Part shown: positions 18,737 to 51,622 of the stretch, in pieces
Layout: the number at the start of each line of letters is the position of its first letter
Position numbering within the stretch: position 1 is the stretch's first letter
Assembly (NCBI RefSeq): GCF_000005825.2
Contig: NC_013791.2
Span: forward strand, 1,488,001-1,552,000
Source of the DNA: Alkalihalophilus pseudofirmus OF4
Lineage (GTDB): Bacteria; Bacillota; Bacilli; Bacillales; Bacillaceae_D
Direction of reading: 5' to 3'
Length of the DNA: 64,000 bases
Translations under genes and position numbers: made by a program
The notes under the pieces: model-generated
What the model was told of the DNA's origin: nothing
Databases searched by the model: none
What the model saw: only the letters and a program-made list of their open reading frames with translations

Positions 18737-18858
18737 GCCGCTCCTGAAATATACTACGCTTTCCGTGGTGAGCTAGTGAGCTTCCTCGGGCTGTTGCCCT
18801 GCGGGATCTCACTCCTGCTCTAGTCACCACTGGAGTCTCTGTATATTTCATCCGCTAG
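18737..18858. repeat. Intergenic palindromic repeat, copy 1
   Basis: A 122-bp imperfect palindrome bounded by GCCGCTCCTGAAATATAC and GTATATTTCATCCGCTAG. It contains CTTTCCG, CTTCCTCGGGC, CCTGCGGGATCTCAC and TGGAGTCT in order. The same order of blocks recurs at 49534 (split by the IS element) and, inverted, at 19000-19127. It is non-coding. Related GC-rich palindromes are common between genes in many Bacillaceae; that comparison is from memory. Confidence 0.8.
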
Positions 18859-18999
18859 GTTAGTACGTTTTCTAATTATAATGTGGAGCAATTTAGTTGC
18901 GGTTCAGTTCAAGTTTTAAAAATGCAGACATCCTTGGGTTCATCTGCTGAGATCAGTGTTCTGTTTATAAAAATGGGAGCAGCTTAACATCCTTCCTCC

Positions 19000-31230: not shown

Positions 31231-31435
31231 TCTGCTATACTCAACATACGGGCTGTATCTTAGGAACAGCACCTTTAAAAGTGAAAGTAGAAAAAATTAG
31301 TTCTGCCTTGATCCCAAAAGGACTAGGACAGAGGGATTGATATGCAATATGTGTACATCGCTTGTTTTTCATAGCTTTGTGTGCATTATTTCCTGTGAGC
31401 AAAATCCTTCTTCCATAAATGGGAGAAGGATTTTT
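31231..31435 (+). promoter_or_regulatory. Leader or short RNA upstream of panB
   Basis: An extended -10 (TGCTATACT, 31233-31241) would start RNA near 31248. It runs through small hairpins (GCTGT/ACAGC, 31252-31270; CTGCC..GGACAG around 31304-31329) to a strong terminator at 31402-31435, about 50 bases before panB. It could be an attenuated panBCD leader or a separate short RNA. I recognise no known riboswitch class. The -35 is not evident. Confidence 0.45.
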
Positions 31436-48800: not shown

Positions 48801-49449
48801 AATTAACGAGCTATTCCTATATCTGCGTGAACGCGTTCAATATGTATTAAATGATCAGTACACAGATGCAGTTAATGTAGTCACTGTTACTGGCAAATCC
48901 AAAAAAGCTCAACATCAAAGCCTTGCTGCTGCTATCAAAGAGTGGAGAAACTCAGGTGAATACTTCTTAGTACAAGAATTAGGAGCAACGATATTGCGAG
49001 TAGAAACCTCTATGAAGCAGGCTCTAATTACGTGGATGAGAGAGACTGAGGAGTCCATTAGAAATGAATTTACGCATTTTATGTTAGATGCTGAAGAGTT
49101 GAACGTACAATTTGATCATCAAAGAGAACATCATATTTTCACTATAAATCCTAATGACTATCTTTCATTTTTATCTTCGTTAAAGAGCTTTTTTGAAGAA
49201 GGGGGAAGTCGTAAGCTAAAAGACCAGCTCGTATCTGACGGTACAGAAATGGCTAAAGCGTATTTGAGTCAGCTAGAAAAAGAAGTAGACAGTGAAGCAG
49301 TAGATCTTTTTGATACTCTTGAAGAAGAGATGAAAAAACAAATTTTAGACAGTCTTGACCGTGAGTATGAACGGTTAACTGTTGATATGTCAGAGCAAGA
49401 AAAGCAAGTGATTGAGACAGAGTGGAAAGAGCTGGAGGCTATCGTTTGA
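45868..49449 (+). CDS. dynA: Bacterial dynamin-like protein with two GTPase units
   Basis: Membrane-remodelling GTPase that in B. subtilis (DynA) acts in one polypeptide with two dynamin units, tethering and fusing membranes and protecting against phage and pore damage. The 1193 residues equal the B. subtilis protein. Unit 1: P-loop GHFSAGKST (residues 41-49), DTPGVDST (near 132), NQVDKHD (near 191). Unit 2: P-loop GAFSAGKSS (625-633), DTPGVNSI (near 780), NAADLASS (near 846). Long coiled-coil stalks lie between. The start may be GTG 45868 or ATG 45883; GGAG and GGGGGAG precede them. The gene is placed away from the ypb/recQ area of B. subtilis, next to ypoC. Confidence 0.93.
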   Translation: MGEKWMRVDVSQRVLTEPEIQRQAMIKDKEVDERFEVAFCGHFSAGKSTILNQLLGAEVLPTSPIPTSANIIGIKNGELGLLVERMDDTEKEWTGEIPWESVREWGMNGSDIRHMTIFAPLPFMHPQSVVYDTPGVDSTDPTHQAVTMEALYTTDLIVYVMDYNHIQSETNLYFLKQLTDENKPLYIVINQVDKHDESELSFDSFKQSVLDGFKEWGIEPLDLYFTSMKVHDHPLNQFTEFKQKIKAILHYSHELIPASKKRLNESFYLSVASRIEDEKQEKMEEVIEELSENGFDKEDLGRKQSIQEELKENVQAEKMIRETFEDEWAKLTKDVTLFPYETTELSREWIESMQPQFKVGLFFAKKKTEEERELRLKKLIESTQDKVKGQLEFHVHRLFEKYDRTHLSNKEAFEDAIRQVHVNVEPEHFEKALKTGPHDREYVFTFTKDRTAYFVKELKRLAEAVIETYISGLRSHWEGERLQLEAELTRFKEIETFTTQLDDIEAEFNMEKEEYFELAASYSDQGHYESQLEAMSEREVPQDVDQSVFHHVSLPEESVIETNWDEDASEKRARFDEEEANSWLTKLTTITQSHEAPEIVDREKRKLLDRVKRYHNRSFIISLFGAFSAGKSSFANALLGDAILPVSPHPTTATVTTVKQSNSEHKNLSASVEIKTPEQLNQEIKSVAKQLDESLTLDSLVKWRPKDTQQTTSWQRTYVSYLLTLKESLKKTEWTLGETLSVSHEQLTQYVADEKYACLIHHVTIYYDCPLTKEGIVLVDTPGVNSIHGRHTNVAFTQLRESDAIFYVTYYNHAFSKSDQHFLTQMAKVNDRFSTDKLYFILNAADLASSPAELNGVRKHIHDQLVNIGIDQPRLYPLSSKKGLEAKRSTSSHDEMFERFENAFYTETIQELKQLSYSLIQEETRTYTEQLNETLNYMNASKEERLAKQEKKKAQVTKWKKHVEDVEPISAKRRTTQEINELFLYLRERVQYVLNDQYTDAVNVVTVTGKSKKAQHQSLAAAIKEWRNSGEYFLVQELGATILRVETSMKQALITWMRETEESIRNEFTHFMLDAEELNVQFDHQREHHIFTINPNDYLSFLSSLKSFFEEGGSRKLKDQLVSDGTEMAKAYLSQLEKEVDSEAVDLFDTLEEEMKKQILDSLDREYERLTVDMSEQEKQVIETEWKELEAIV

Positions 49450-49533
49450 TTGTGAATAGCTATTCGTTACCATTATCTCAAGAGAGTAATCTTGTAAAGG
49501 TACGTTAAATCGATCGGCATAAGTAGGATGTTT

Positions 49534-49632
49534 GCCGCTCCTGAAATATACTTCGCTTTCCGCAGGAAGCTGCTGAGCCTCCTCGTGCTCTTGCACTGTA
49601 GGGTCTCAGCCCTGCTTTACATCCTGCAGGAG
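49534..49632. repeat. Intergenic palindromic repeat copy 2, left part (interrupted by the IS)
   Basis: GCCGCTCCTGAAATATAC, CTTTCCG, GAGCCTCCTCG and ATCCTGCAGGAG follow the order of copy 1 (18737-18858). The right part, GGAGTCTACGTATATTTCATCCGCTAG-like, resumes at 51388. The IS is inserted exactly at GGAG. Confidence 0.85.
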
Positions 49633-49659
49633 CATTCCTGTCAGATGAGTTTTAACCTA

Positions 49660-49688
49660 TTGAAAAGAAAAGGATCCTCCGATATGAT
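49660..49688 (+). promoter_or_regulatory. Transposase promoter
   Basis: TTGAAA (49660-49665), a 17-bp spacer and TATGAT (49683-49688), inside the left end of the IS. Start near 49695. Confidence 0.7.
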
Positions 49689-49727
49689 GCTTGTGTCTCA
49701 AAACAAACATTAAAAAAGGAGGATCCT
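49671..49727 (+). promoter_or_regulatory. Inverted repeat masking the transposase ribosome binding site in read-through RNA
   Basis: AGGATCCTCC (49671-49680) and GGAGGATCCT (49718-49727) are exact 10-bp inverted repeats; the right arm contains the transposase site GGAGG. The left arm lies upstream of the transposase transcription start, so only transcripts entering from outside would form the hairpin. Confidence 0.7.
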
Positions 49728-49730
49728 CAC

Positions 49731-51011
49731 ATGAAGGATAATCGAACGAAACGAATTAATCAAGTTCAAGAAAGCACTCTTGTCATTGGAATTGATATCG
49801 CAAAGGAGAACCACTATGCCTGCGCGATTGATAGCCGCGGTCGAGAATTAGCTAAAGTGTGGAGGATTCATCAATCTAGAGAAGGCTTTATCCAGTTTGA
49901 AGAGTACATTCACATGTTAATGAACCAACATCAAAAGACAGATGTTCTGATTGGTTTTGAGGCAACCGGTCATTACTGGATGAACCTAGCTCATTTCTTA
50001 AAGGCAATTGACTTTCCATTCGTCTTAGTGAACCCACTACACGTGAAAAATTCGAAGGAAATGGATGATAACCTTCAAACAAAGAATGATGCCAAAGATG
50101 CCCGAGTCATTGCGAAATTACTTCCAAACGGCTACTTTAGTGTACCAAGAGACATGACCCCGGTAGATCATTCTTTGCGTCAAGGATCAGCCATTCGAGA
50201 ACGTCTACGAAAAGACATTGGGGCAGTAAAAAATAGAATACAGCGTTGGATTGCCCTTTATTTTCCGGAATTTCGACAAGCCTTTAAGAATTTTGGAAAA
50301 CAAGAACTGACGGTTCTAAAGCTTACTCCCCTTCCAGAAGATATCAAAGAAGCCTCTGCAGAGGAGTTAGTCATCAAACAGAAAGAGGCTGGAGCTAAGT
50401 ACGCGGGTAAACCTAAAATGGCGAAGCTCATTAATTTGGCCCGTCATTCGATTGGACTAACAGAAGGAGCGCAAATGGCGCGGTTAGAAATCCAAAGCTT
50501 GGTTCATCAATTAGAGCTATTAGATGCTCAACTCGAAGAAGTCACGACTCAAATGGTTGAACAGGCAAGATACTTACCGGAGTTTGAATACCTTGTTTCT
50601 GTTAAAGGAATTAGTGAAAACACGGTCAGTGAGCTGTTAGCTGAGACGGGTTCTCTTCAGAACTACGAACACCCACGCCAAATTATTAAACTAGCGGGGT
50701 TAACATTAAGAGAGAATAGCTCAGGGAACCATCAAGGAACCAAGAGAATTTCTAAGCGTGGCAGAAGAAGATTAAGGGCACTTCTTTACAAAGCCATCCT
50801 TCCGCTGATTCATAATAATGAGGCGTTCAACAGCGTGTATACCTATTATCACTCGCGCCAGTATAACCCATTGAAGAAGAAAGAAGCGATGGTCGTATTA
50901 TGCAGAAAGCTCATTCAAGTGTTTCATGGACTGAGTAGGAATCAAGCAAGCTTCAATCCTGAAAGGATGTTAGCGGACCTCTCCTATATCACAGAGAGTA
51001 GAGCAGCGTAA
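49731..51011 (+). CDS. IS110-family RNA-guided DEDD transposase (recombinase)
   Basis: 426 residues. N-terminal RuvC-like DEDD domain: VIGIDIAKENHYACA (D near residue 21), IGFEATGHYW (E near 72), and NDAKDARVIAK (two D near 120-123). The C-terminal Tnp domain carries the conserved serine region LTLRENSSGNHQGTKRISKRGRRRLR near residue 330. A coiled coil of about 60 residues separates them. The ATG at 49731 lies 8 bases after GGAGG. IS110 enzymes recombine through core dinucleotides using a bridge RNA; here the RNA lies downstream. Full length with no frameshift, so it may be active. Codon use is slightly unlike the neighbours. Confidence 0.94.
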   Translation: MKDNRTKRINQVQESTLVIGIDIAKENHYACAIDSRGRELAKVWRIHQSREGFIQFEEYIHMLMNQHQKTDVLIGFEATGHYWMNLAHFLKAIDFPFVLVNPLHVKNSKEMDDNLQTKNDAKDARVIAKLLPNGYFSVPRDMTPVDHSLRQGSAIRERLRKDIGAVKNRIQRWIALYFPEFRQAFKNFGKQELTVLKLTPLPEDIKEASAEELVIKQKEAGAKYAGKPKMAKLINLARHSIGLTEGAQMARLEIQSLVHQLELLDAQLEEVTTQMVEQARYLPEFEYLVSVKGISENTVSELLAETGSLQNYEHPRQIIKLAGLTLRENSSGNHQGTKRISKRGRRRLRALLYKAILPLIHNNEAFNSVYTYYHSRQYNPLKKKEAMVVLCRKLIQVFHGLSRNQASFNPERMLADLSYITESRAA

Positions 51012-51039
51012 GTGTTAAGCTTTCTTCGTTTTAACAACA

Positions 51040-51192
51040 TATGCACAGAGACTCGGCAAGCGTAGACTTAAGACCGCCTAGGATAGGTGAGTCCATGCAG
51101 GAGTAGAAGCCGAGCTCTGCGTCAGGAAAGACCCAACGAAGGAATGTAGGCACTTGATGCCAGGAGATATGGGAGGGTACGTCCCCTGAAGC
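51040..51192 (+). ncRNA. Bridge (seeker) RNA of the IS110 element
   Basis: Two stem-loops. Loop 1 is closed by CAGAG-a-CTCGGC (51046-51057) with GCCGAG-CTCTG (51109-51119). Its 5' side holds CGTAGACT (51061-51068), equal to the bottom strand over the right junction; its 3' side holds TGCAGGAG (51096-51103), equal to the top strand over the left junction (49625-49632). Loop 2 is closed by TCAGG (51122-51126) and CCTGA (51185-51189), with an apical hairpin GGCA/TGCC. Its 5' side has AGGAATG (51140-51146), the complement of the first 7 bases of the IS; its 3' side has GGGAG, equal to the right end. This is the target and donor loop layout of IS110 guide RNAs. Transcript limits are not visible. 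Confidence 0.85.
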
Positions 51193-51387
51193 AGCAGAGA
51201 TCACTCGTGCAAATACCATTTGAATTGGTAGTAGTTTACAAACTGCCAACGCCACGCGTAAGCATAACAGCCATATCCTTCTTAATCTTCCGTAATGTGT
51301 ATATGGATATCGGAGTATAGTCTTAAAAAATTTTTTTTAGTAGTGTTAAAAACCAAAGAAACCCCCGTCAGATTAACTTTTCCTGAG

Positions 51388-51414
51388 GGAGTCTACGTAT
51401 ATTTCATCCGCTAG
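51388..51414. repeat. Intergenic palindromic repeat copy 2, right part
   Basis: GGAGTCTACGTATATTTC and ATCCGCTAG continue the repeat interrupted at 49632 and match copy 1 at 18832-18858 with two changes. A weaker similarity continues to about 51475 (GTGGAG..ATTTAGT..TTCA), also seen after copy 1. Confidence 0.85.
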
Positions 51415-51497
51415 TTATTGCTTTGGCTTTCTTTTTGTGGAGTGATTTAGTAATGATTCACCTCATTTAAAGAACAATAAAAATTTTACCCCTGAGC

Positions 51498-51532
51498 AGC
51501 ACCGCACACTCTTGTGTGGTGCTGTTCTTTTG
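51498..51532 (+). terminator. Terminator downstream of the IS element
   Basis: CAGCAC-CG-CACAC (51498-51510, two bases bulged) pairs with GTGTGGTGCTG (51515-51525), followed by TTCTTTTG. It probably ends dynA and IS transcripts. Confidence 0.75.
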
Positions 51533-51580
51533 TATCCGTATATCTGTAATAACTCATTAAAGAAGGGATCTAATCATAAG

Positions 51581-51622
51581 AAAGGACACCCAACCATTGA
51601 TAATGGTGGGTGTCCTTTTCTG
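51581..51622. terminator. Bidirectional terminator downstream of ponA
   Basis: AAAGGACACCC, one bulged A and ACCATT (51581-51598) pair with AATGGTGGGTGTCCTTT (51602-51618) around a GAT loop. It is 9 bases beyond the ponA stop codon on the minus strand. Confidence 0.9.

Follow-up and report, generated by a model that had tools for sequence, protein, structure and literature searches.

The window, a 64,000-nucleotide stretch of Alkalihalophilus pseudofirmus OF4 DNA, holds a transposase gene followed by a non-coding region, the two lying together inside a dispersed palindromic repeat. The features of the locus are as follows.

49545-49632, + strand: left part of the dispersed palindromic target repeat, start approximate
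49625-49632, + strand: left target TGCAGGAG, with the core AG at 49631-49632
49633-51389, + strand: insertion sequence of 1757 bp, two-base core AG counted outside; 4 genome copies, empty orthologous site in two close genomes
49731-51011, + strand: transposase gene, 426 aa, with PF01548 (DEDD_Tnp_IS110) and PF02371 (Transposase_20)
51043-51046, + strand: basal stem of the predicted three-way junction, GCAC, partner GTGC at 51207-51210
51047-51214, + strand: putative guide (bridge/seek) RNA, match to covariance model R1 at 117.8 bits; the basal stem begins a few bases earlier
51052-51057, + strand: target stem, 5' strand CTCGGC, partner GCCGAG at 51109-51114
51061-51068, + strand: 5' target guide CGTAGACT, reverse complement of 51390-51397
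51096-51103, + strand: 3' target guide TGCAGGAG, equal to 49625-49632
51115-51120, + strand: donor stem, 5' strand CTCTGC, partner GCAGAG at 51194-51199
51140-51146, + strand: 5' donor guide AGGAATG, complement of the left end CATTCCT (49633-49639); no covariation seen on the left side
51171-51175, + strand: 3' donor guide GGGAG, equal to the right end plus core AG (51387-51391); covaries in relatives
51390-51397, + strand: right target AGTCTACG
51390-51429, + strand: right part of the target repeat, end approximate

The transposase has an N-terminal DEDD/RuvC domain (PF01548, 117.2 bits) and a C-terminal PF02371 domain (74 bits), both above cut-off, a domain content that points to the IS110 family in its broad sense. 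The transposases of IS621 and ISCro4 were the sole solved structures to match it by sequence at an E-value of 0.001, the likeness lying in the C-terminal part. A search of the genome returned four copies of the element and one 112-base remnant (L005). A single base separates each of two copies, L002 and L003, from the window copy. The fourth (L004, G000:C1:383631-385364) has stop codons in its transposase gene and a full-length guide RNA match, and could thus act only with help in trans. A scan of genome contigs for relatives yielded four loci, one of them partial; the majority of the relatives considered below came from a search across genomes.

The orthologous locus is present without the element in two close genomes. 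In one, of the same genus, the empty site is exact (TGCAGGAGTCTACG) and is fitted by the two target guides across all 14 bases; in the other, of the same species, it carries one change, from core AG to GG (TGCAGGGGTCTACG). These empty sites fix the ends of the element and make AG common to both junctions. All four genomic copies are inserted precisely at one point of the repeat, between CAGGAG and AGTCTACG. The first-pass annotation had taken copies at unrelated sites as the outcome that would speak against guided insertion, and no such copy was seen. Its question whether every site matches the same two 8-mers was answered yes for the point of insertion in 4 of 4 copies and, for the full length of the left word, in two of them: the two bases 5' of CAGGAG are TG in two copies, CA in one and CG in one, so that two copies match the 3' guide over 6-7 bases, not 8.

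The target repeat is roughly 110-120 bp long. Uninterrupted CAGGAGTCTACG occurs at nine further places in the genome, and a search with one repeat copy as query listed 45 matches, three of which are half-sites beside copies of the element; this number is rough, as 40 of 50 candidates were scored. The target bases differ among repeats, and the four insertions sit in copies with the exact 12 bases, an outcome with a chance of 0.004 when 13 exact copies among 46 are assumed, which is again a rough figure. A further repeat copy lies near 18796-18860 of the window. The repeat had no Rfam match in the window scan, and a literature search by its letters found none. Sequence aligning to it (67-76% identity over 82-121 columns) also surrounds the elements L006, L008, L020, L050, L074 and L078; the alignment is weak or partial at L032, L041 and L047, and none was obtained at L057, L062, L023 and L028. 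Several relatives outside this species also appear to target the repeat.

Guide words and predicted fold of the downstream RNA

The region 3' of the transposase gene had been annotated as a guide RNA, with two 8-mers on opposite sides of a first loop matching the insertion site and two shorter words, AGGAATG and GGGAG, in a second loop matching the element's own ends. The words and coordinates all proved correct, and the RNA does lie in the downstream non-coding right end. The further assertion that two such 8-mers are hard to get by chance also stood: among 20,000 first-order Markov sequences modelled on the 378-nt non-coding region, the first 8-mer occurred in 72, the second in 136 and both in 1. 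A looser test, in which any 8-mer of the 14-nt flanks on either strand was accepted, gave one match in 1624 of 20,000 versions and matches to both flanks in 30. Bridge RNAs and seekRNAs are recognised by guides complementary to both target strands around the core and by a second loop matching the element's own joined ends; judged by its words, the candidate RNA has both.

The RNA is predicted to fold as a three-way junction, with a basal stem, a target stem-loop and a donor stem-loop. In an alignment of 38 RNAs, the same on which the consensus structure was predicted, 21 of the 26 consensus pairs show compensatory changes, and 96.6% of 980 cells are paired, as against 81.5% in shuffled alignments and 30-46% with partners slid. 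Four of five measures of covariation lay above all 500 shuffles; the fifth, the number of pair types, did not (198/500). The 5' arm is misplaced in alignment A2 for the window RNA and its nearest relatives, so that some of their helix 1 and 2 cells count as unpaired. A lack of conserved structure in homologues had been named as grounds for abandoning the guide RNA reading, and the fold turned out to be both conserved and covarying. The stem proposed for the first loop was right in its CTCGGC/GCCGAG closure and wrong in its CAGAG/CTCTG extension, which competes with CTCTGC/GCAGAG. This latter helix, whose strands are about 80 bases apart, is present in the window's minimum-energy fold, and its inner four pairs covary (helix 3; 98.7% of cells paired, 38 RNAs). 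The fold energy of the window RNA itself is mildly better than that of shuffles (z -1.65). In its minimum-energy fold the two target guides are partly base-paired to one another, and the open target loop is therefore a reading of the consensus.

Model R1 gave 117.8 bits on the window RNA (L001), which is one of its 30 training sequences, and found four relatives outside the training set at 97-104 bits. Scanned against the whole genome, it found the four element copies; it also matched 59 of the 299 genomes sampled from the window's phylum, which is Bacillota judging by the named relatives; the window's own genome is one of the 59. With E up to 1, there was no match in the remnant L005, in the partial relative L009 or in the genome's four other PF02371 loci (L163-L166, on the second contig, G000:C2), nor in four other IS110-family plasmid loci. 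The 4227 families of Rfam gave a single match in the window at gathering thresholds, elsewhere than the guide RNA, and three sub-threshold matches in 49400-51600 with E up to 5, none of them a bridge RNA. A pan motif RNA (RF01749) is found at 31249-31335 of the window (66.3 bits). Altogether, we consider it very probable that the locus is an IS110-family insertion sequence with a bridge RNA or seekRNA in its downstream non-coding end.

Placement between the IS110 and IS1111 groups

The element shares with the IS1111-group seekRNA elements (ISEc11, ISPa11, ISKpn4 and IS4321) an RNA downstream of the transposase gene, a top-strand-complementary segment 5' of the bottom-strand-complementary one, and matches that overlap in the target. 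Insertion into repeats is a further likeness, ISPa11 being found in REPs (PMC11187229, PMC1525189). Siddiquee et al. describe the present guide order in IS1111 elements and the reverse order in ISEc21 (PMC11187229).

An ordinary member of the IS1111 group that has simply lost its subterminal inverted repeats by decay would have its RNA downstream of the gene and the top-strand guide first, as PMC11187229 describes for IS1111. We think this rather unlikely, since the repeats are 7-17 bp long in IS1111 elements (PMC11208160) and no trace of one was detected in this clade in an ungapped comparison of the outer 40 bases. The best score in the window element was 5, reached by 663 of 1000 shuffles, and ten relatives likewise had no such repeat, none of the 11 clade elements beating 142/1000, whereas the IS4321 control gave 11 perfect bp (0/1000). 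The transposase is also longer, at 426 aa versus the 330-350 aa stated for IS1111 (PMC11187229). R1 with E up to 1 had no match in the control stretch of R751 that holds two IS4321 copies.

IS621 and the IS110-group bridge RNAs are alike in having the target loop before the donor loop, a guide on each side and a two-base core. The window RNA differs in lying downstream and not upstream of the gene, with the guide order relative to the gene reversed in both loops; its left non-coding end (98 bp) had no RNA-model match, and no upstream RNA of the narrow-sense IS110 (IS621-like) kind was found there. The core of IS621 reads CT. Viewed from the RNA's own strand, where the core of the window element likewise reads CT, the pairing geometry appears to be the same in the two elements, and in both the RNA gene seems to lie in the end read by its 3' donor guide. 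For IS621, pairing is described between the 5' guides and the left bottom strand, and between the 3' guides and the right top strand (PMC11208160). The window element suggests that the change of guide order reported between the IS110 and IS1111 groups depends on the location and arrangement of the RNA gene, not on the inverted repeats.

Some IS110-type elements also have a downstream non-coding region (PMC11187229). The 'green' group in Fig. 1b of that paper, compared here by position only and as described there, is alike in where this region lies and in having subterminal repeats that are absent or short and imperfect. A tree of 20 transposases, including one IS1111 member, had weak deep forks and long branches. 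We call the window element a variant between the IS110 and IS1111 groups that appears to fit neither cleanly, because it has the RNA position and guide order of IS1111, but lacks subterminal inverted repeats and has a longer transposase.

Guides, flanks and element ends among relatives

Both flanks were available for 118 of the 142 locus rows. After exclusion of three with a right flank of <12 bases and of two duplicates, 113 element-site pairs remained, among them the window's four copies, and these fell into 31 classes of 3' guide. At the level of these classes, own left flanks were matched at 5.01 of 8 bases, compared to 2.71 for swapped flanks, and own right flanks at 5.82 versus 4.83; with guide classes that are related by descent, 0 of 10,000 permutations reached the observed value on either side. 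The null is high on the right because the best position in the loop was taken and the first member's 5' guide stood for its class. The own flank ranked first, ties included, in 15 of the 31 classes on the left and 9 of the 31 on the right. Classes with the Shine-Dalgarno-like guides described below have near-identical targets and therefore cannot outrank one another. Matches were weaker on the right side than on the left; the guides of L125 fit neither side, and the L109 and L147 classes rank 22 and 24 on the right.

Individual pairs can be followed by eye. In Evansella halocellulosilytica (L006), guide CGGCGACT faces the right flank AGTCGCCG and guide TGCTGGAG the left flank CGCTGGAG, while the guide of L008 fits AGTCTTCG using two G-U pairs. 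The right side of the repeat varies among relatives (TCTACG, TCGCCG, TCTTCG, TCGGCA). The guides of L006, L008 and the window's element mirror this variation; past AGTC, the right guide of L020-type elements is a poor fit (class rank 4). That guide and target change together in many relatives strongly supports RNA-guided insertion.

Two side observations were made in these flanks. Guides and flanks close to AAGAAAG recur in elements of different branches (L075, L115, L146, L155 and L156, with L114 as a looser case), and L075, L146, L155 and L156 have TATAAAA in common on the right, which looks like convergence on one target. At L132, a second left end seems to begin directly past the right core (CATTCCTG), as would be expected of a tandem insertion.

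Recognition of the repeat by a protein surface of the transposase, the RNA words being a by-product such as captured flanking DNA, would be compatible with the insertion of 4 of 4 copies into one repeat family, since within this genome alone site choice could be protein-driven. It is nonetheless highly improbable, given that the guide words shift with the site in 31 classes whose transposases are related and whose RNAs have a common scaffold, that they occupy fixed places of a conserved structure and that the two words, on opposite sides of the loop, match opposite strands.

The claim that the second loop reads the element's own ends gained from a comparison of right ends, which were set by copy-against-copy comparison and obtained for 11 of 15 copy groups. 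The dinucleotide preceding AG is identical in RNA and right end in 11 of 11 groups. It is GG in eight groups; AG in two from a single genus, which have ATGAGAG in the RNA and GAGAGAG at the end; and AT in one, with ATGATAG in the RNA and GAGATAG at the end. Eight single loci with GATAG or AATAG in the RNA have GAGATAG downstream; the distance from the RNA match is 253 bases in L254 and 124-188 bases in the other seven, and these ends were found by looking for listed motifs. A joint switch of end and guide from GGGAG to GAGAG or GATAG is seen at L246-L253, L259-L262, L269-L270, L272, L274-L276, L279, L282 and L283. The motif scan gave no such end at L255, L271 and L281 (GATAG word) or at L256 and L257 (GAGAG word), and L267 disagrees (RNA GAGAAG, end GAGAGAG). 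A position-free tally over 130 distinct RNAs found a matching candidate end for 101 of 104 of the GG type, 10 of 10 of the AG type and 7 of 13 of the AT type; it is noisy, with rival candidates beside some ends, 3 RNAs misparsed and 9 of 231 loci lacking a parse, and we therefore relied on the copy-against-copy ends. The left end, AG followed by CATTCCT, is nearly invariant across relatives and does not covary with the 5' donor guide, which reads AGGAAAG in L074, AGGAAGG in L109 and AGGAATT in L286 and others while the end stays CATTCCT.

That the RNA is mainly a regulatory leader or terminator of the element, with matches arising by chance, can be set aside almost completely: structured RNA beside genes is common and the single-sequence folding is unremarkable, but both target words occurred in 1 of 20,000 Markov sequences, and the words covary with the flanks and with the right end.

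For the RNA-guided insertion that we favour, the following sequence of events can be proposed. The RNA would be transcribed and bound by the transposase as a three-way junction, target loop first and donor loop next. In the target loop, the top strand on the right of the core would be bound by the 5' guide CGTAGACT, and the bottom strand on its left by the 3' guide TGCAGGAG, so that the 14 bases TGCAGG-AG-TCTACG of the site are read jointly. The donor-loop words AGGAATG and GGGAG would read, with the same geometry, the joined ends of an excised circle, GAGGG-AG-CATTCCT. One RNA would thus hold this target and this donor side by side, and an active RNA-protein complex would catalyse strand exchange at the common AG, giving TGCAGG-AG-CATTCCT and GAGGG-AG-TCTACG, which are the junctions observed.

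Shine-Dalgarno-like targets

A guide ending in AAGGAG, TAGGAG or GAGGAG, accompanied by a suitable 5' guide, is found in 54 of the 113 element-site pairs (L021-L154), under a broad definition that was set after the words were seen. The left flanks of this set end in AGGAG, each base in 96-100%, and G follows the core in 85%. Since these guides resemble the Shine-Dalgarno sequence of Bacillus and spell such a region (AAAGGAG then GGTGAAAA), the elements may home on ribosome-binding sites. In 28 of the 54, a start codon (ATG, GTG or TTG) that opens a frame of 50 codons or more is found at 3-12 bases from the right core, compared to 10 of the 59 pairs with other guides (Fisher p 8e-5, in counts where copies inside one genome are non-independent). 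Neighbouring intervals of the flank held start codons in 4-11 of the 54, and there were 22 occurrences of ATG at offsets 9-12 among the 54 pairs and 7 among the 59.

For IS900-type elements, insertion close to ribosome-binding sites is known. Among the literature matches listed, in the text available for them, no paper was found on bridge-RNA targeting of Shine-Dalgarno sequences or ribosome-binding sites. On the sequence evidence, we lean slightly towards regarding the clade as a branch of its own among bridge-RNA elements, spread through the phylum, with a three-way-junction RNA at the right end, no subterminal repeats and a large set homing on ribosome-binding sites. If this is true, the right end GAGGGAG would leave a Shine-Dalgarno-like sequence before the downstream gene.

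Among the relatives, RNA scaffold and most of the donor are fixed and the target guides have been rewritten many times, a series made by nature that also includes variants of one donor guide. From such a series, the rules of guide pairing and the bases that count can be read off directly. If relatives do aim at ribosome-binding sites, this would be a simple strategy for finding gene-start sites across many hosts.
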